Below, in pieces: positions 21,696-29,600 of a stretch of 29,801 bases of DNA. The position numbers were made by a program, and so were the translations under genes. This DNA comes from a virus. Where the stretch lies: positions 1-29,801 of the IMG/VR virus record IMGVR_UViG_3300024433_000032; one strand, written 5' to 3'. Numbering within the stretch: position 1 is the stretch's first letter; each line of letters opens with the position of its first letter. Under the pieces are notes generated by a model, which worked only from the letters and a program-made list of their open reading frames with translations, was not told where the DNA came from and made no database searches.

Positions 21696-22178
21696 CTACT
21701 CCACTAAGGAAAGTCTAGTCTGTGATGAACCAGGCTCAAAAGTTTGTTGTTGGATTTCATTTCTTCTTGTAGAGAAGGCTTGTACTAACTTTCTAAGTCT
21801 CTCCGTTCTAGGATCAGAGCCAATAAAAGATAATGAGTCAAAATCAAAGTCCGATGTCTCGCTGCCTGTAAGTCTTCCTTGAAGACTCTCAGCTAACCTA
21901 AAGACTTCTTCGTTAAATTGCTGTCTTTGATTCTCGTCGTTTGCAGCATCTCTTTGCTGTTCGATAGTCTCACCTTGCTCTCTTCCAATAGATGCTCCTA
22001 TAAGCGCTCCGGTAGGGTTAGAAGTTAAAGCTCCACCTAGAGCTGCTCCACCTAATAAACCTGCAGTAGAAGGGTCACTAACTCCTGCTGCCCTACCTAA
22101 GCCTCTGCCTAAAGATCCACTTATGGCAGCTATAGGGTTAATGGCTGCCGAAACAATTTTTCCTGCACTTGAACTCAT
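21696..22178 (-). CDS. Small Gly/Ala-rich virion assembly protein of unknown function
   Basis: 160 residues. The N-terminal half is Gly/Ala/Ser-rich with GLLGGAALGGALTSNPTGAL and GASIGREQG, giving a flexible or membrane-active region (about 15-65). The C-terminal half is charged with helices (EQQRDAANDENQRQQFNEEV). It sits directly before the portal gene, where T7 has its small gp7.3 tail-assembly protein, and overlaps the terminase stop (ATGA). A gp7.3-like role is inferred from position only. Confidence 0.72.
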   Translation of the reverse strand: MSSSAGKIVSAAINPIAAISGSLGRGLGRAAGVSDPSTAGLLGGAALGGALTSNPTGALIGASIGREQGETIEQQRDAANDENQRQQFNEEVFRLAESLQGRLTGSETSDFDFDSLSFIGSDPRTERLRKLVQAFSTRRNEIQQQTFEPGSSQTRLSLVE

Positions 22179-23497
22179 GCTGTCTCCAATTCATTATATT
22201 CTAAATTTGCCTGCCTTGGCAGCTCATCGTACTTTGTATCCCCAAAGAAAGATTCTCTCCTATCAAGAGCTGAGTATCCAAAAGAATCTGCTGCATGAGA
22301 GGTCCAATCGTGCTTTGGTTTATTTTTAAATATTTGTAATTTCGAATCCCAATCTTTTTGATAATTCATAAGAGAATCTAGACCTTTTTGGGTTAACTCT
22401 CTGTTGAAAAAACTTGTTGGGATAATATTTCGTGCGGCTTGTATTCTATCCTCTACCGCCTGTCTCTTTTGCATTTCTACATTTTTTAAATGTTTTCTAA
22501 ACGTATTGATTCTAGTCTGTCCACTAGTCATTTCTTTTACGTTAGCGTCCCAAGGGACAACGTGTCGTCCATAACTATATTCTTTTTCTTTTATAATTTT
22601 GCACATTTCAGGAATCGATAAACCATTATCTTCAAAGTATTCTATATAACGAAAACCTGAGCGGTCTCTTTGTCTAAACCATACAGACATCGAATCATCC
22701 ATGCCTAGATCCCAGAAAGTGTCTACAGGTAATCCAGGATCGTACGGGTAAGCTCCTATCTGACCTTTTTCTTCAATGATGTTTAATTTTTTAGCAAAAT
22801 ACGCGCCTCTAATAGCAGCGTTAAAAGAGCATTCCATCTCTTGCATATATTCTTCCTCTTCGATCTCATCGCGGATCTCAGCTAGTTCTTCATCATCAAT
22901 AATACCAGTTTGACTAGCTTTGAAAATACAAGTAAACCAATTTGGATTCTCACAAGCATCATTATATCTTTTTTCAAAATGATTCTTACCCTTTGGCGTC
23001 CCAATAAATATGGCCCATCCCTTTCGATCAGACAGAGCTGGTCTGGCCACCTCTCCCCAAATAATAGGGTCACACTGGGCGAACTCATCAAATACAGCTC
23101 CGTCTAAATAGACACCTCTAACTGTATCGGGATCTTCACTACCAATTAAAAGGATCTTTATCGTATCCGGGTCTGGTAGCCAGGTTCGTTGAATCATTAT
23201 AGTTAATTCTTGCTTGTTTTCTTTAAACCCTGGAATATGACGGGCATATTCTTTCAAAGGGTCCCATGCAATACGTTTCGCCTGCTTGTAAGTAGGCGCA
23301 AAATAGGCATATTGAGGATTTCTCAAAGGATTTGTTAAAGCTTTTGCCAATAAGTGGTTAAGAGTAAAGATCGTTTTGCCGAAACGTCTATGACAGACTA
23401 GGACGTTAAAACGTTTTAGCTCCTTATGCAAAAAAGCTTGCAACGGACGCGGCTCGTATCCTGTATTGAACTCTTGTTTAATCAAATCGCATCCCAA
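22175..23497 (-). CDS. Terminase large subunit (ATPase and nuclease)
   Basis: 440 residues. Walker A is CHRRFGKT (35-42), Walker B is GAVFDE with D137 and E138, and a coupling motif is IGTPKG (165-170). The C-terminal nuclease shows FWDLG (D263), PWDA (D317) and HAADSF (D404), the three acidic residues expected of an RNase H-like terminase nuclease. It pumps DNA into the prohead through the portal and cuts it. The start overlaps the preceding hydrolase-like gene by 16 bases and the stop overlaps the next start by 4. Complete and confident. Confidence 0.97.
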   Translation of the reverse strand: MGCDLIKQEFNTGYEPRPLQAFLHKELKRFNVLVCHRRFGKTIFTLNHLLAKALTNPLRNPQYAYFAPTYKQAKRIAWDPLKEYARHIPGFKENKQELTIMIQRTWLPDPDTIKILLIGSEDPDTVRGVYLDGAVFDEFAQCDPIIWGEVARPALSDRKGWAIFIGTPKGKNHFEKRYNDACENPNWFTCIFKASQTGIIDDEELAEIRDEIEEEEYMQEMECSFNAAIRGAYFAKKLNIIEEKGQIGAYPYDPGLPVDTFWDLGMDDSMSVWFRQRDRSGFRYIEYFEDNGLSIPEMCKIIKEKEYSYGRHVVPWDANVKEMTSGQTRINTFRKHLKNVEMQKRQAVEDRIQAARNIIPTSFFNRELTQKGLDSLMNYQKDWDSKLQIFKNKPKHDWTSHAADSFGYSALDRRESFFGDTKYDELPRQANLEYNELETA

Positions 23498-23970
23498 GTC
23501 ATGTGAAGGTCCCAGTTATCTGGATCATTTAGTTTAAGTCCATCAAACTCCACCAAAAAAGAAAGAATTAATTCGCTACAAATAAGCTTTTCAAAATTAC
23601 TTCCGGATTTGTTAAACCCTCTTATGTTAAGAATTTTTAACGCTAACCCTAGAATCTGTTTATGATCGTAAACTTTATGTTCGTGACTCTCTAGCCATTT
23701 TAAAAATTCTATTCTATCAATGCCGTACGTTCTTTTTTTAATATCCACTTTATCGTATTTTTTAAAAAAAGCATCGCCTGTCATCTCTCTTGCTCCGGCA
23801 AAAGGGACATCAGCTATCTTTAAAGCTCCTGTCTCGGAATGAAATCCCATCGCCATATGCGAATATGCATTTTTCTTCCAAGGAAGCATCCCTTGAAATA
23901 CCATTATTGCCCAAGAAAAAAGAGGAAACGGATGGTAGGTTGGTCTTAACTTATAAAAGTAAATTATCAT
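23482..23970 (-). CDS. Putative permuted papain-fold (NlpC/P60-like, YiiX type) cysteine hydrolase
   Basis: 162 residues. The N-terminus is a hydrophobic beta-strand then WAIMVFQGML, followed by YSHMAMGF (H38), a middle region (ADVPFAGAREM) and LICSELILSFLV (C131), with FNKSGSNFEKLICSEL matching the Cys helix of permuted papain-fold enzymes, in which His comes before Cys in sequence. Such enzymes act as amidases or peptidases on cell wall or other amide targets. It could be an endolysin-like or virion-borne hydrolase; no signal peptide is clear. It is encoded directly before the large terminase, coupled to both neighbours. Activity is inferred. Confidence 0.65.
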   Translation of the reverse strand: MIIYFYKLRPTYHPFPLFSWAIMVFQGMLPWKKNAYSHMAMGFHSETGALKIADVPFAGAREMTGDAFFKKYDKVDIKKRTYGIDRIEFLKWLESHEHKVYDHKQILGLALKILNIRGFNKSGSNFEKLICSELILSFLVEFDGLKLNDPDNWDLHMTWDAI

Positions 23971-24845
23971 ATACTAAACTCGTTTACTAAATACTGCCTA
24001 ATAGTTATACCGCCACCAAAAACAGGAGGAGCAGAGTCAAGCCATTGAACGTAATTAGCTTTATTTTCTTCTTCGATTTTTACAACAATTGATTTTTTTC
24101 CAAAATTAGGGTCAGCAGGGTCGTTAATTGAAGATGAGTTATCCACAAATTTATTAAATTCAGTTTCATACTCATCCATAAAATCACGACCTTTTAGTAT
24201 TACTGTTCCCTTATCAAACCCAAGAGGCATGAGTACTTCCATCATTCCTTGAAGGACAGGAAATTGAATTGATTTAACAAGAAGTGATCTTCTTTTTACG
24301 CCTTCATCAATTTGGTCTGATGGATTAACAAAGTAATGTTTATGGGTAATTTTATTTTCTTCATTGTCGGATTCATCAATATTGATCCATGTTCTCGTAG
24401 TCGTTCTGCTTATTGCAAATCCAGATGCATCTCTATTATAAACTACTTCAACTCTAATAACCTTATCTTGAGGAGCATTGTTTTCATCAAGAGATTTATA
24501 CCAATCGACTTGGGTTACTTCACCCTTAGTAACTGTTCTAATTGGTATTAAAGATTGAGTAAGCTCAACACTTTTATAATTTATATCAGTGTGGTGCTTT
24601 GATTTAATACCATCTCTAACAATGCTGTATATCTTAGGAACTTTTAATGCTGGGTCTGTATCTACAAAGTTTGTAATTAAATCATCTAGATCGGACTCTT
24701 CCTGAGCAGTAAGTGGCTCAGTTAAGGTAAATCTTAAATCATCATCTCCAAATTTTAATACTATTTCTATCTTAGAAATTAAAGCCTTTGCATCATCATT
24801 AAACTTGTTTAAATCTAATATGTTCGCAGTCTTATTTATATACAT
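23967..24845 (-). CDS. Virion-associated protein of unknown function in the fibre cassette
   Basis: 292 residues, not recognised. Mixed alpha/beta and acidic, without signal peptide or membrane segment. A stretch such as RVEVVYNRDASGFAISRTTT looks like paired beta strands (about 130-150), and the C-terminus is APPVFGGGITIRQYLVNEFS. The gene lies between the collagen-like fibre gene and the hydrolase gene, overlapping both by one and four bases, so it belongs to the same coupled cassette. Possibly a fibre adaptor or base plate-like component. Confidence 0.7.
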   Translation of the reverse strand: MYINKTANILDLNKFNDDAKALISKIEIVLKFGDDDLRFTLTEPLTAQEESDLDDLITNFVDTDPALKVPKIYSIVRDGIKSKHHTDINYKSVELTQSLIPIRTVTKGEVTQVDWYKSLDENNAPQDKVIRVEVVYNRDASGFAISRTTTRTWINIDESDNEENKITHKHYFVNPSDQIDEGVKRRSLLVKSIQFPVLQGMMEVLMPLGFDKGTVILKGRDFMDEYETEFNKFVDNSSSINDPADPNFGKKSIVVKIEEENKANYVQWLDSAPPVFGGGITIRQYLVNEFSI

Positions 24846-25435
24846 TATGAGTACCTCACCAAAAATGCAGAATAACCTTTAAGCTGTGCAGTTCCACCAG
24901 TAGCTTCTTTAGAAAATCTTAGATCTAAATCTTTATTACCTGCCGTTACGTTTCCTAAAGGGAATGTATAAGATCTCCACATTGACTGATCAGCGATATT
25001 ATCTTTATGTTCTTCAGCATATTCGGGAGTTAAAATAGATCCATCAAAGTCTAGGTCAAACTCCATGTCATTACCTGTGCTATGTGTTCTGACAGCTAAC
25101 GAGACTTGCAAGTAACAATTACCAGCGGTAGATACGTTAAAAGTATCAGTATAGATAATAGTTTTAGTTGTAGTGTTTGGAAGTGTTACTGTTCCAGGTT
25201 CATTTACCTCACCCTCAACGCTCATTGGTCCTGCTGGTCCTTGTGGTCCTGCTGGTCCTGCTGGTCCTGCTGGTCCTGCTGGTCCTGTAGCTCCGGGAGG
25301 TCCAATTAAACTTTGAGCCGCTCCTGCATCCGTTTTGTAGTAAGGCTCGTTAGTGCCTTGATCGGCATAAAAACGCATCTTACCGCTTGCAGGCGTATCA
25401 GGCTCATTTTGTTTGTTAAACTCTATATAACTCAT
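24845..25435 (-). CDS. Collagen-like short tail fibre protein
   Basis: 196 residues. An N-terminal adaptor (about 18-43, GKMRFYADQGTNEPYYKT) is followed by nine Gly-X-Y triplets (residues 45-71, mostly GPA), then a beta-rich C-terminal domain (about 75-196) that looks like a jelly-roll. Collagen-like triple helices are used as trimeric fibre shafts in phage. The C-terminal domain probably caps the trimer or binds a ligand. It is part of a group of fibre genes upstream of the large terminase. Confidence 0.85.
   Translation of the reverse strand: MSYIEFNKQNEPDTPASGKMRFYADQGTNEPYYKTDAGAAQSLIGPPGATGPAGPAGPAGPAGPQGPAGPMSVEGEVNEPGTVTLPNTTTKTIIYTDTFNVSTAGNCYLQVSLAVRTHSTGNDMEFDLDFDGSILTPEYAEEHKDNIADQSMWRSYTFPLGNVTAGNKDLDLRFSKEATGGTAQLKGYSAFLVRYS
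25227..25288 (+). repeat. Tandem 9-base repeat encoding the collagen-like shaft
   Basis: Repeats of GGTCCTGCT (plus strand; AGCAGGACC as read in the gene), almost identical in several successive copies. They encode the GPA triplets of the collagen-like fibre. Identical codons in each unit suggest recent expansion and make this tract prone to slippage, so length variation in frame is expected. Confidence 0.9.
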
Positions 25436-25770
25436 AGTACAATAGCCTCCCCTTCAAGGATTAAATTGCCCGTAGTAAAACAAGCATCATGCAAAACAAC
25501 AAATTTGTTCTCTGGCACTAAAATATCATCCAGATAAATTCTATCAATAAATCTATCTTCAATTAACTTTGACCAATTAGTAGCTCCTAAAGCGAACTTA
25601 CGCCAAACAGACCCGCTATCTTGATCAATATACAAAGTGGCAATAGGGGAGTCAGTTCCTACTGGACTCCCACTACCACCTGTTAAATAATATAAAACAT
25701 TGCCGTCGTCGTCTTTAAACGCAACCCCAAAAGGTTCTAGTCCATAAGCTTCTTCGGCATTAATTGTCAT
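25432..25770 (-). CDS. Small fibre adaptor-like protein
   Basis: 112 residues, not a named family. Residues about 44-70 (ATLYID ... WRKF ... TNWSKLI) match the short attachment motif of the large fibre protein (SIYIR ... LFIK ... TNWSKI). The rest is beta-rich with no signal peptide. It overlaps the collagen-like gene start by 4 bases (ATGA). Probably an adaptor joining a fibre to the virion, or an accessory fibre subunit. Confidence 0.7.
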   Translation of the reverse strand: MTINAEEAYGLEPFGVAFKDDDGNVLYYLTGGSGSPVGTDSPIATLYIDQDSGSVWRKFALGATNWSKLIEDRFIDRIYLDDILVPENKFVVLHDACFTTGNLILEGEAIVL

Positions 25771-25778
25771 ACACTATC

Positions 25779-27080
25779 CTATAAAGCAGCTACGCCTGTT
25801 CTTCTAACAGTATATCTGATACCGTCAGCATCGCTAGTATCAAGCTGTAATCCCATTGTCTGAGAAGCTCCTGTCCCAGATAAAACGACACTAGCTTGGA
25901 TATTAAAAGTTCCACCAATGTTTTGTCTTCTAGAAATATCGTCTTTTACAACAGTAGCGTCAGCTCCAGCGTGTCCGTTGTGAAAACCTTCTATTCTAAA
26001 CTTTCTTACCTTAGTAGGGTCTCCAATATCGTGTGCTGTTACTTCCCACTCTGCCGATTGAAATTCATCTACTAAAACAGTATCCACTACAGTTGGAGTA
26101 TTTTGTGCAATATCAGCTGGTCCTGCTGTAGATTCTAAAGCTTCGATAGCAGATTCTAATTCTTGATTAACCGTTCTCTGGTTAACGTTATCAGAAATAA
26201 TGTTTCCAGTGTAAACACCCATGTCTACGTCGCCAGCAACTCCACCAAGACTAGTTCTAAGAGCTTGCGCTTCAGTTTCTAGTTGTTGAATATTCTGCTT
26301 AATAGACTCGCCATCGTTAAGTAAAGATCCAGTATAGTTACCCATATCAGAATCAGATTGAACATTTCTACCTAAGATAGAACTAGTGTTATCCAAATTA
26401 CCATCTAGTTTCTGTAGAGCACCTTGTACTGTATCAGAAGAAGATACGTCTCCAGCTGAAGCTGCGTAACCAGCTGCGATGTTAATACCATCTGCAAAGT
26501 TCCAATCAACATCTGCAAGTTTGATCATAACCGAACCGTTATAAACAACTAGAGCATCGTTTTCCTGTGATGCTGGAGAGTCCGGTAAATAATTACGAAC
26601 AATAAACGCATCGTTATTTGCTAAAGGATCTGCCGCAGCGGCTAACGTAATATTAGGTGCTGAAATTGCCGTTACTTCAAAAAGAGCTGGAGTACCATCA
26701 GCATCACCAATAACAAACTCGCCTACTGTAAAATCACCAGCGGCTACTGGAGTCTCGTTATCACTCCAAGAAGTAGGATCTACTGAGCCCGCTGCAACCG
26801 TATCGTCAGTTAGAGCTCTAACTACCTCGCCTCTCCATGACAAATTTAATAAGTCATCTGCATCTGAAAGCTTGCTCCACTTGTCAGTCCCTGCTCCTGC
26901 GCTCTTTTTTACGTAAACTTCACCGGCACTGTTATGATAAAAAGAACCTGGGTTAGCGTTATCCTGAAAAGAGCCGTCAGCTCCAGGCGCACCTGATCCT
27001 CGTAGAGTAGAAATAGGTGAATCACCATTTTCTTCAAATAAATTAAAACCTAATTCAAAACCTGCAATATCTCTAGACAT
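25779..27080 (-). CDS. Fibre-like structural protein with internal repeat
   Basis: 433 residues, beta-rich with helical repeats. The N-terminus contains the adaptor motif (GSFYHN ... EVYVKK ... DKWSKLS, about 46-72). Two repeats of about 37 residues lie at about 237-274 and 279-315, each with DMGNYTG or DMGVYTG followed by a Gln/Asn/Glu-rich helix, which suggests a trimeric coiled shaft. The C-terminal domain (about 325-433) is a beta sandwich candidate. It is the longest member of the fibre cassette between the two terminase genes. Confidence 0.78.
   Translation of the reverse strand: MSRDIAGFELGFNLFEENGDSPISTLRGSGAPGADGSFQDNANPGSFYHNSAGEVYVKKSAGAGTDKWSKLSDADDLLNLSWRGEVVRALTDDTVAAGSVDPTSWSDNETPVAAGDFTVGEFVIGDADGTPALFEVTAISAPNITLAAAADPLANNDAFIVRNYLPDSPASQENDALVVYNGSVMIKLADVDWNFADGINIAAGYAASAGDVSSSDTVQGALQKLDGNLDNTSSILGRNVQSDSDMGNYTGSLLNDGESIKQNIQQLETEAQALRTSLGGVAGDVDMGVYTGNIISDNVNQRTVNQELESAIEALESTAGPADIAQNTPTVVDTVLVDEFQSAEWEVTAHDIGDPTKVRKFRIEGFHNGHAGADATVVKDDISRRQNIGGTFNIQASVVLSGTGASQTMGLQLDTSDADGIRYTVRRTGVAAL
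26136..26372 (-). repeat. Two-copy internal protein repeat (coding)
   Basis: The coding region for residues 237-315 of the fibre-like protein holds two diverged units sharing DMG(N/V)YTG and a following Asn/Gln-rich helix. It is a protein-level repeat, not an identical DNA repeat. Confidence 0.7.
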
Positions 27081-27423
27081 TAAACACTCCTCGTATTAAT
27101 TCGATATCCAAATCGAATGTCTCGTTATTAATAACTTCTAATTCGGCATTTACCCCGTTAACCTTCACTGTTAACTCAATATTCATGCCTCCAGCTATGA
27201 ACTTATTAGAAATAGTATCCCTTAAGTTCGAATTTTCATTAGTTACGTTAAGCTCAAACCTGTTATAACGGCTGTTTACCTCATTACTTATACTAACAAA
27301 ATATTTGGCCGCTTTTAGCTGGGAAAGAGCTGCTATATCCACTACAAACGTCGATGTACCAGGAATCACCCTTCTTAGCCTACGCCAAGGGGTAGGTCCT
27401 GATACCGCTGTCGTTAACGTCAT
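27073..27423 (-). CDS. Small beta-rich protein of unknown function in the fibre cassette
   Basis: 116 residues, no family recognised. Predominantly beta with alternating hydrophobic residues (AAKYFVSISNEV, FELNVTNEN, IELTVKVNGVNAELEVI), compatible with a small jelly-roll or immunoglobulin-like fold. It overlaps both neighbours by 4-8 bases. No signal or membrane segment. Its place among fibre genes suggests a virion role. Confidence 0.68.
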   Translation of the reverse strand: MTLTTAVSGPTPWRRLRRVIPGTSTFVVDIAALSQLKAAKYFVSISNEVNSRYNRFELNVTNENSNLRDTISNKFIAGGMNIELTVKVNGVNAELEVINNETFDLDIELIRGVFNV

Positions 27424-28064
27424 TGCGCTATTGCCTCCACGTCCAAAGTAACCGCACCTAGTTCACTTTTTGCATAAACTAGAAAAGTTACGTCGGCGAT
27501 TGCCCTCGGAAACAACGTATAAATTCTTTCCTGCTGATCAGCCAATTGCTGACCCAAAAACCCAGGCTCTGTATTATCAAAATTTAATCTAACGTTTTGA
27601 CCTGTGTTGTTTTGGATATTAAGACTTACAATATTATCAATTACATTGGCAGGTACAAGAGTCCAACCAGTATTGTTAATACCTACTTGAAAAGTAGTCC
27701 CTGTTGACCCTCCTCCAGTTGGAGAAAACACAGTTCCGTCGCTTGTAAAAATCCTAACAGGCGGTATAAACAAATTCGGATCCCCAGGCGCTGCGCCCGT
27801 GCCGTTGGCAGGAGGTCCGAAAGATGCAAGCCTATTATCCCAGGACTGAGAAAAGCGGGCATCGTCGGCGTATTCCACCTCTACGATAACCCCGTTTGCA
27901 ACAATGGTACGCTCTAAAAGCCACGCCTCGTCCGCATCCAAAACTCCCCTAGAGGCAAGCCCTCTAATGGTAGTGTACTCGTCGATATGATCGACACGCG
28001 TAATGAAGCGCCCGTTCTCCTGTCTAAATAGCTCGAAAAAATCGAAATGCTTTCTACCCGCCAC
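27420..28064 (-). CDS. Protein of unknown function in the fibre cassette
   Basis: 214 residues, unassigned. The N-terminal about 80 residues (DFFELFRQENGRF, ITRVDHIDEYTTIRGLASRG) are mixed and charged, then a Gly/Pro/Ser-rich linker (about 85-125), then a beta-rich domain (about 125-214). This two-domain plan with a flexible linker fits a virion adaptor or decoration protein. It overlaps the downstream gene by 4 bases and adjoins the coiled-coil gene upstream. Confidence 0.68.
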   Translation of the reverse strand: MAGRKHFDFFELFRQENGRFITRVDHIDEYTTIRGLASRGVLDADEAWLLERTIVANGVIVEVEYADDARFSQSWDNRLASFGPPANGTGAAPGDPNLFIPPVRIFTSDGTVFSPTGGGSTGTTFQVGINNTGWTLVPANVIDNIVSLNIQNNTGQNVRLNFDNTEPGFLGQQLADQQERIYTLFPRAIADVTFLVYAKSELGAVTLDVEAIAQ

Positions 28065-28366
28065 TACTTAGCTTCTTTTTCCATCTGCTTGATAATGCCT
28101 TCGGCTTTCGCCAAAGATTTGGTGAGGCGCTCGTTCCCCTTCTTGAGCTCAAAGATCTCCCGCTCAAGCGCAACGATAGTATCCTTAGCCTCGTTTAGCT
28201 CCACGCTTCGCTGCTTCTCAAACGCCTTCTTCGAATCTTCAATCATACGCGTTAGTTTCTTAATCTTACCCTGAAGCGCATAGACGGCTTCTCTACTCGT
28301 ATCAACCGTTTCCGCCTGGTTAACAAAACCACGATCCGCTAGGACTCTATTTTTCAAACTGCTCAT
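28064..28366 (-). CDS. Small coiled-coil protein next to terminase small subunit
   Basis: 100 residues, highly charged and helical. Residues about 25-98 form a continuous heptad-rich region (ALQGKIKKLTRMIEDSKKAF, ALEREIFELKKGNERLTKSL) that should form a coiled coil. No other motif. Its start overlaps the small terminase gene by 20 bases and the base composition there appears richer in GC than the later fibre genes. Possibly a packaging accessory or fibre assembly factor; unknown. Confidence 0.7.
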   Translation of the reverse strand: MSSLKNRVLADRGFVNQAETVDTSREAVYALQGKIKKLTRMIEDSKKAFEKQRSVELNEAKDTIVALEREIFELKKGNERLTKSLAKAEGIIKQMEKEAK

Positions 28367-28976
28367 GCTCTACCTCTATAGTTTTTACGTTCGGCGATTC
28401 GCTATCCAATGGAACCCCCGTATTTATAATCATTTGGACTGGACCAGTTGCAGCGTCATTAGGTCCAGATTTGGTCCCATAGCCCTTAGGGTCCGATTTC
28501 TCCGCAAGCCACTTAAGCTTATCCATCCAAAGCTTTTCAGCTGGTACTTCATCCTTTGCCAGATCCTTAGTCTCTTCCAGGGAATCTATGATCTGGTCAA
28601 CGAATCCTTCCGCACGTGCCTGCTTTGCGGCCTTAATAGCTTCCTCAAAATCAGGATTCTCCCTTCGCCACTTTGCAATAATGGTAGTACATGGCATTTC
28701 TGGACGCTTTGCAATAGATGTGAACGAATGTCCTTTAGCAACGAGCTGCACAATGAGGTCGTGGTAGAGCTGGTTGTAATTCCAAAAAGCTGAGTTTTGA
28801 TTCGTGAACACTGGATGATAGTCACGACCAGGAATTTTGCCATCTTCAAAGCGCGGTGCGCTTCGCACAATTTCACCAGAAATGACATTTACGACGTGAA
28901 TATCGCCGTTTTCATCCATGTAATGGTAATTTTCGTCCGTTTTTTCGATATCGGTCAGGGATTTTGATTCTTCCAT
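28347..28976 (-). CDS. Terminase small subunit-like DNA-recognition protein
   Basis: 209 residues. The middle matches the terminase small subunit family: a helix-turn-helix-like segment HDLIVQLVAKGHSFTSIAKR (about 72-91), PCTTIIAKWRRENPDFEEAI (about 95-114), KQARAEGFVDQI, then the dimer helix ending in DKLKWLAEKSDPKGYG (about 152-167). This is the usual domain order of DNA recognition followed by oligomerisation. It is expected to recognise the packaging site and hand DNA to the large subunit. It is the first gene of the late operon and lies beside the structured non-coding region. No convincing Shine-Dalgarno is seen before its ATG. Confidence 0.82.
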   Translation of the reverse strand: MEESKSLTDIEKTDENYHYMDENGDIHVVNVISGEIVRSAPRFEDGKIPGRDYHPVFTNQNSAFWNYNQLYHDLIVQLVAKGHSFTSIAKRPEMPCTTIIAKWRRENPDFEEAIKAAKQARAEGFVDQIIDSLEETKDLAKDEVPAEKLWMDKLKWLAEKSDPKGYGTKSGPNDAATGPVQMIINTGVPLDSESPNVKTIEVEHEQFEK

Positions 28977-29080
28977 TTCAAAAAATTACCAAAAAAGAGA
29001 GTTCGAGGCAACAGGGTAGTTTCTCCGTAGGTTAAGGTAGCTTAAAAATAAGAATTCGCTTATGCTCGACGCGTTACCGG

Positions 29081-29086
29081 ATTATA
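29081..29086 (-). promoter_or_regulatory. Candidate late-operon -10 box / phage promoter core
   Basis: Leftward TATAAT inside CACTATAATCC, about 105 bases before the small terminase start. The -35 at standard spacing (GCATAT) is poor. The CACTATA part resembles the core of T7/SP6-type phage promoters (CACTATAG), so a phage polymerase promoter is an alternative. No RNA polymerase gene is in the window. Confidence 0.3.
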
Positions 29087-29101
29087 GTGTATAGATTTTA
29101 G

Positions 29102-29113
29102 TAATATGCGAAC
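29102..29113 (+). repeat. Direct repeat TAATATGCGAAC, copy 1
   Basis: Exact 12-base repeat, start-to-start distance 38 bases from copy 2. It is in the divergent control region, so a protein binding site or promoter element is plausible. Confidence 0.7.
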
Positions 29114-29139
29114 TTTTGTAAATAAGTTTAGGGTTTAAA

Positions 29140-29151
29140 TAATATGCGAAC
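29140..29151 (+). repeat. Direct repeat TAATATGCGAAC, copy 2
   Basis: Second exact copy of the 12-base repeat. Both copies are preceded by a T/A-rich stretch (TTTAG or TTAAA). Confidence 0.7.
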
Positions 29152-29188
29152 CTAGTAAAAAGGGGGAAAGGGTGGGGTGCGTGAGGCG

Positions 29189-29338
29189 ATGTATTACACT
29201 AACCCCGGGCAGCCTATTTTTGGGGTATACCCCCCCTTAGACTATGCCCTAGACTATAGACCCCCCTATAGGCACATAGCGGTCCGTTGTCTTAGTGCTG
29301 AGATTCGTGAGTCAAGAGCCTATGACCGCGCACCGTGA
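29189..29338 (+). CDS. Possible 49-residue open frame in the control region (doubtful)
   Basis: An ATG-initiated frame, stop-free for 49 codons. It is Tyr/Pro/Arg-rich (YPPLDYALDYRPPYRH), which follows directly from the DNA repeats and C tracts. GAGG lies only two bases before the ATG, too close for normal initiation. No family match. Probably not a gene; listed because it is the only frame of any length in this gap. Confidence 0.15.
   Translation: MYYTNPGQPIFGVYPPLDYALDYRPPYRHIAVRCLSAEIRESRAYDRAP
29222..29233. other. 12-base perfect palindrome within C tracts
   Basis: GGGGTATACCCC, continuing into a run of seven C. It is followed by a repeat of TAGACTAT (29238-29245 and 29250-29257) and two CTATAG palindromes (29254-29259, 29266-29271). 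It may be a protein-binding or cleavage site. Confidence 0.5.
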
Positions 29339-29346
29339 ACCATTTT

Positions 29347-29377
29347 CACAACGCATTGCGGTGCGTGCTACGTTGTG
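29347..29377 (+). other. Inverted repeat in the leader of the small genes
   Basis: CACAACG (29347-29353) pairs with CGTTGTG (29371-29377); an alternative inner stem ACGCA/TGCGT (29351-29366) shares bases with it. The two folds are mutually exclusive, which is seen in switching leaders but may be chance. Confidence 0.4.
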
Positions 29378-29400
29378 CGATCATACGTGTGTAAAAACTT

Positions 29401-29423
29401 GCGGTTCGAATAACTCGAATCGC
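29401..29423 (+). other. Stem-loop directly before the first small gene
   Basis: GCGGTTCGA, loop ATAAC, TCGAATCGC: a 9-bp stem with one G-T pair. It ends a few bases before the AAGG ribosome site. It could stabilise the transcript 5' end, be processed by RNase III, or modulate translation. Confidence 0.5.
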
Positions 29424-29441
29424 GAAACGAAGGATTAACCC

Positions 29442-29600
29442 ATGACCAAAGTACTAATAACTCTAGTAATAGCTACAACGCTTCTAGTAATAAGCCACGA
29501 TAACCAAAAACCAAGCGCCGAGAACGTATACCAAGATAAAGAATTGATCGAGTGTCCTGGTATATTCAACTACGAAACAGAAAAATGCGAAATTAATTAA
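29442..29600 (+). CDS. Small exported or membrane peptide (52 aa)
   Basis: 52 residues. The N-terminus MTKVLITLVIATTLLVIS is one hydrophobic segment with a single Lys, like a signal peptide or membrane anchor. The remainder is hydrophilic with two Cys (ECPGIFNYETEKCEIN), able to form a disulphide in the periplasm. AAGG lies eight bases before the ATG. It is followed after 37 bases by a second gene of the same kind, suggesting early genes. Function unknown; such peptides may act on host membrane or envelope processes, or exclude other phages. Confidence 0.6.
   Translation: MTKVLITLVIATTLLVISHDNQKPSAENVYQDKELIECPGIFNYETEKCEIN

Follow-up and report, generated by a model that had tools for sequence, protein, structure and literature searches.

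A terminase-oriented G-run/C-run palindrome upstream of the late operon as a candidate packaging-initiation site in a podophage-type genome and related phages

A G-run/C-run palindrome and its terminase-side flank, together about 45 bp (29191-29236), probably form the packaging-initiation site of this phage, a candidate assignment that we hold with modest confidence and that was drawn from sequence comparison. The type, position, and orientation of the element are conserved upstream of terminase genes in many phages. Two features by which cos sites are tested were found, in that the element adjoins the terminase genes on their upstream side and its sequence is conserved in related phages. In the mechanism we propose, the terminase would load at the site on concatemeric DNA, make its first cut there, and then reel the DNA in. 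The terminase would bind the element itself, and the cut would fall in or beside the G-run, the centre, and the C-run; the flank, a GC block plus an AT-rich or GTTAGG-like block, may serve as the docking place for the small subunit or another factor. A cos site, a direct terminal repeat, and a headful start (pac) are all compatible with such a site. A packaging start or cut site would explain the presence of one copy per genome in the genomes checked, its orientation, its proximity to the terminase genes, and its retention despite diverging flanks.

The window, that is, the whole stretch of DNA that was analysed, comprises the 29,801 bases of the linear record IMGVR_UViG_3300024433_000032, from a genome of podophage type. 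It is probably a genome fragment, because the contig of its nearest relative (L002/G001) measures 40.9 kb, and in this fragment no terminal repeat of 12 to 200 bp was found. A fragment of a family-A DNA polymerase gene lies on the plus strand at the left of the window, followed by a long series of leftward genes that includes T7-type portal, capsid, tail, large terminase (TerL), and small terminase (TerS) genes. The features used below are as follows.

22175-23497, minus strand: TerL, the large terminase subunit, about 5 kb downstream of TerS.
28347-28976, minus strand: TerS, the small terminase subunit, Sf6 gp1-like by Pfam, phrog, and PDB matches, leading the late operon.
28977-29441, no strand: intergenic region from which the late (terminase) and early operons diverge, from the open reading frame (ORF) list and the sequence.
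29100-29160, plus strand: TAATATGCGAAC repeat in two copies, near 29100 and 29138, 38 bp apart.
29191-29216, minus strand: terminase-side flank, a GC block GGCTGCCCGGGG and then GTGTAATAC, about 25 nt from the C-run.
29217-29236, minus strand: core element TTTTTGGGGTATACCCCCCC, a single copy in the window, with counterparts conserved in other phages.
29222-29233, no strand: perfect 12-bp palindrome GGGGTATACCCC within the core, from a palindrome search.
29261-29266, no strand: second C-tract, CCCCCC, on the early-gene side of the palindrome at a distance of about 31 bp.
29327-29425, plus strand: part of the early-gene leader with two stretches that tend to form hairpins (stems 29327-29338/29356-29367 and 29399-29409/29415-29425).
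29442-29600, plus strand: small ORF without a family match, from the ORF list, opening the rightward (early) operon.

TerS matched Pfam Sf6_terminase (3e-21), phrog_1482, and PDB 3hef/4dzj (7e-10), and the Pfam and PDB matches place it in a type seen in the headful family. Several genes occupy the roughly 5 kb between TerS and TerL (within 22175-28976), including a collagen-repeat tail-fibre-like gene at 24845-25435, and the same separation is seen in the relative G001. Within its rightward early block, G001 also carries a D5-type primase-helicase gene on the minus strand (28383-30773), and a SNF2-type helicase is encoded at 30973-32394.

The preliminary description of this DNA had singled out 28977-29441 as a large gene-free region that separates divergent units and touches the TerS gene. 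Indeed, this 465-bp gap is the biggest in the ORF list of the window and holds no convincing gene, its sole candidate being a 53-aa GTG ORF; leftward TerS ends the gap on one side, and the rightward ORF begins at 29442 on the other. That description had also reported an unusual concentration of G/C tracts and palindromes. The tracts are clustered: the window has 8 runs of five or more G or C, and 3 of them fall in the gap, where 0.12 would be expected by length. The GC content of the gap is only slightly higher than that of the window (about 44% versus about 41%). The concentration of palindromes did not hold, since of the window's 29 even palindromes with a length of 10 bp or more just 1 lies in the gap, with about 0.45 expected. 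Folding of the whole gap as DNA (z = -0.25) and of the RNA leader at 29290-29441 (z = -1.24) resembled that of shuffled sequences, so the idea of a structure-rich region was rejected. BLASTN of the gap region against cultured phages gave no match, and Rfam, tRNA, and terminator scans of the region found nothing.

Read on the terminase strand, the core at 29217-29236 is GGGGGGG-TATA-CCCC-AAAAA, that is, a G-run, a self-complementary centre, a C-run, and an A-run. Because G-run/C-run palindromes can fold, such an element could be some other structure that precedes late operons by coincidence, for instance a leader RNA hairpin, a terminator, or a recombination or pausing site; in the locus L353, terminator-like repeats do adjoin it. 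However, the palindrome is not followed by a T-run on either side, the terminator scan scored no candidate site, and the folding values above match shuffles. We therefore regard a structural role of this kind as quite improbable.

The nearest relative (L002/G001) shares the divergent layout of the window, with identities of 70% for the portal protein, 78% for TerL, and 57% for TerS, and it was the one close relative returned by TerS protein searches. In its gap, TTTTGGGGGTACCCCCC is retained at the position of the window's TTTTTGGGGTATACCCCCCC, and most of the remaining gap aligns poorly. Read toward the terminase, both sequences consist of a G-run, a self-complementary centre, a C-run, and an A-run. 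The flank has a counterpart in L002 as well (GCGTAATAG). A GGGGGTC tract at about 2912-2924 of L002 lies at a distance from the palindrome similar to that of the second C-tract in the window. The direct repeats TAATATGCGAAC were not seen in L002 and, on this comparison, probably lie outside the conserved site. Thus, conservation of the motifs in related phages, which had been named beforehand as a test, was borne out for the G/C palindrome but not for the direct repeats.

More distant loci with a related TerS extend this pattern. In L005, L074, L086, and L115, a run of G5-8, a short centre, C4-7, and A's stand upstream of TerS, and inspection revealed the same arrangement in L060. Of the 22 loci with a window-type TerS, 7 carry G4+N1-6C4+A in the 400 bp upstream of TerS, where dinucleotide shuffles predict 0.13, and 10 carry the C-run/A half alone, for which the same procedure predicts 1.7. 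The relatives L022 and L076 do not have the element, and among prophage-type or bacterial-genome loci with this TerS even the C-run/A half was seen only in L242. By eye, a GTTAGG/GTTGGG/GTTAGC block was noted 21 nt after the C-run in L074, L086, L005, and L075; in that clade, it may be an additional component of the site.

The element also recurs in HTVC010P-type pelagiphages, whose loci we collected by TerL alone. Here it forms a composite of a G- or C-run, usually TATA, a C-run, and then ATATACATGGGA, the counterpart of the window's flank, after 26-28 nt. This spacing was fixed in 65 of 66 anchored cases, and the composite sits 300-430 bp upstream of TerL. Of the 74 upstream segments, 53 carry it on the terminase strand and none on the opposite strand, and it was present in 1 of 1336 other segments. 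Even between pelagiphages with about 97% identical TerL (L154-L233), the left half can switch from a G-run to a C-run or back; therefore, the element is not a strict palindrome in every phage, and the C-run/A half is its constant part. Isolates HTVC027P, HTVC023P, and DSL-LC04 carry reduced versions only. The window-type TerS was not detected in HTVC010P-type phages.

This spacing bears on the strongest rival to a packaging site, namely, a promoter/operator of the terminase operon. According to this explanation, the element would be the control region of the late promoter, with a palindromic operator just upstream of the -10 box that is bound by a phage or host activator. The element always precedes the first late gene, and in HTVC010P-type phages a TATATATACA box at the fixed 26-28 nt would place the palindrome near -45, a usual activator position. 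Similarly, TAATAC/TAATAG is found at about 25 nt in the window and L002. Palindromes also fit dimeric regulators, and the element recurs beside different terminases. On the other hand, L074, L086, L005, and L077 keep the G/C tracts without a -10-like box at that spacing, and in L340, L377, L381, and L437 the element and the predicted start of TerL are about 25 bp apart. Moreover, among the genomes checked there was one copy per genome and none before other operons, the left half flips from G to C, and promoter-like sites showed no excess. Altogether, we consider a promoter/operator unlikely, although it is the main rival.

We further searched viral contigs by pattern. An exact scan for TTTTGGGGTATACCCC matched 30 contigs, and 18 of these have, on the A-run side, a TerL gene that points the same way and begins no more than 2.5 kb from the element, with no mirrored case. 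A composition-matched control pattern matched 6 contigs, none with a TerL resembling that of the window; a wider TerL panel gave weak matches (26-32% identity) in 4 of the 6, of which one pointed the same way at a distance of 2 kb, one was mirrored, and two were elsewhere. An independent scan for GGGGGTACCCCCNAAA matched 116 viral contigs. TerL was recognisable in 72 contigs: in 60 it starts no more than 2.5 kb away and in the same direction, in 5 it is mirrored, and in 7 it lies elsewhere; dereplication leaves 32. Some TerLs found in these loci were reused as queries, and the total of 60/116 depends on that step; the orientation contrast of 60 versus 5 is independent of it. The TerLs beside GGGGGTACCCCCNAAA belong to several lineages, including phrog_2 types, phrog_38 types, and PaP3/P22-like types. 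L384 and L412 combine a PaP3-like TerL with a G5TAC5 element. These two loci appear as mosaics in which a PaP3/P22-like TerL is combined with HTVC010P/window-type genes for portal, capsid, and tail, with the element kept upstream.

Could the element be a G/C-rich spacer without conserved function, arising by chance? G and C runs are common in some genomes, and a few of the 116 GGGGGTACCCCCNAAA matches fall within ORFs. Nonetheless, chance is contradicted by the orientation contrast in the GGGGGTACCCCCNAAA contigs and by the pelagiphage counts of 53/74 versus 0/74 and 1/1336, and we give it almost no credence.

Taken together, comparison of these loci suggests that what they share is where the element lies and which way it points with respect to the terminase genes, rather than one TerL lineage or the window-type TerS. 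Recurrence with unrelated TerLs and the failure to detect the window-type TerS in HTVC010P-type phages weigh against a packaging site, as do the flipping left half, the reduced versions, and the relatives without the element. For the window, the comparison supports the candidate packaging site of the preliminary description in the form of the location, orientation, and conservation of one terminase-linked element. More tentatively, the G-run/C-run palindrome plus A's might be a start or cut signal shared by unrelated terminase lineages of aquatic phages, HTVC010P-type phages included, from which the ends of uncultured phages could be predicted from sequence alone; we regard this broader proposal as possible but doubtful. 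Virion sequencing is needed to locate the ends of a phage genome, and most uncultured phages therefore have no known ends or packaging site. If true, an oriented, terminase-linked signal in HTVC010P-type and related phages would be a testable predictor of the packaging start, and one would have to ask what maintains a single G/C palindrome across differing lineages of terminase.

The same gap had alternatively been proposed as a replication start. An origin would combine the G/C tracts of the divergent region with an adjacent AT-rich stretch where unwinding begins. The region does have a strand switch, an AT-rich repeat adjoins the site in pelagiphages, a TTATCCACA box lies nearby in some of these phages, and DnaA-like proteins are annotated in records. 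However, a perfect DnaA box is absent from the window gap, no DnaA box at all was found in Lederberg or L043, and the gap shows no phage-wide origin hallmark. The relative G001 encodes, along with its D5-type primase-helicase, a family-A polymerase, and a strong orientation toward the terminase would have no obvious reason at an origin. The GC-skew check that had been suggested was uninformative by itself, as the minimum in G001, near the gap, coincides with the switch of gene strands. Thus, a replication start found little support and is very unlikely.

Next to the preferred reading of a packaging site, we examined genome ends. Among about 45 contig ends fetched independently of the motif, 2 fall within it (about 0.2-0.3 expected by simple proportion), without a strong pile-up at the site: L160 begins with GGTATACCCC and L225 with CCCCCCCCTATACCCC. 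Since homopolymers alone can break assemblies, these two ends give weak support for genome ends at the motif. A further end at the motif, in L366, was set aside as uninformative, as it follows a 17-nt tag that is present at both contig ends and looks like an amplification primer. The published record ends of P26218 and OH do not carry the motif, and the HTVC010P record ends lie about 570 bp away from it. Several HTVC010P-group pelagiphage isolates were assembled as circular contigs (PMC10504331), the only statement on pelagiphage termini that we found in the literature searched, and circular records also exist; such assemblies disfavour a simple cos end. For Pelagibacter phage Skadi (records OP131293-OP131302), a 125-bp terminal repeat has been published (PMC10504331). 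This value is the same as the difference in length 35392-35267, and isolates differ in how far their record ends lie from TerL; the repeat may therefore reflect overlap in the assembly and not a true terminal repeat. A TerL tree had long branches and placed the window TerL with no phage of known packaging.

Three known systems invite comparison. Sf6 and P22 are headful phages. The window TerS is Sf6 gp1-like, whereas the window TerL is neither P22- nor Sf6-like by BLAST, and P22 pac lies inside the TerS gene (a feature of the P22 record), unlike the intergenic element of the window, which also differs in sequence. PaP3 (Bruynoghevirus) is a podophage with two oppositely transcribed regions and cos ends, whose terminase binds and cuts cos (PMC3488191). 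Its cos has 20-nt 5' ends, and a PaP3-like TerL accompanies the element in the two mosaic loci; however, the published cos GCCGGCCCCTTTCCGCGTTA is unlike the element, and BLAST detected no similarity between the window TerL and that of PaP3. In Byrnievirus HK97, the 3' cos has G/C-rich segments near the cut just upstream of terS, and the small terminase occupies a CCCG/T-tract junction 15-29 bp away from that cut, with a TerS site that ends in an A:T tract (PMC10370121). The HK97 ends are without GGGG-TATA-CCCC, and the window TerL is not close to HK97 TerL; nonetheless, pelagiphage sites likewise appear to have a GC block and then a T/A tract at a similar order of distance, a parallel that we take as architectural resemblance and not as a test. 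No published description of the element in phages was found in the literature searched, in which the papers matching its sequence do not concern phages; this negative does not extend to the literature as a whole. A packaging site beside terminase genes is of a known kind, and what appear to be new are its sequence form and its recurrence with different terminases.
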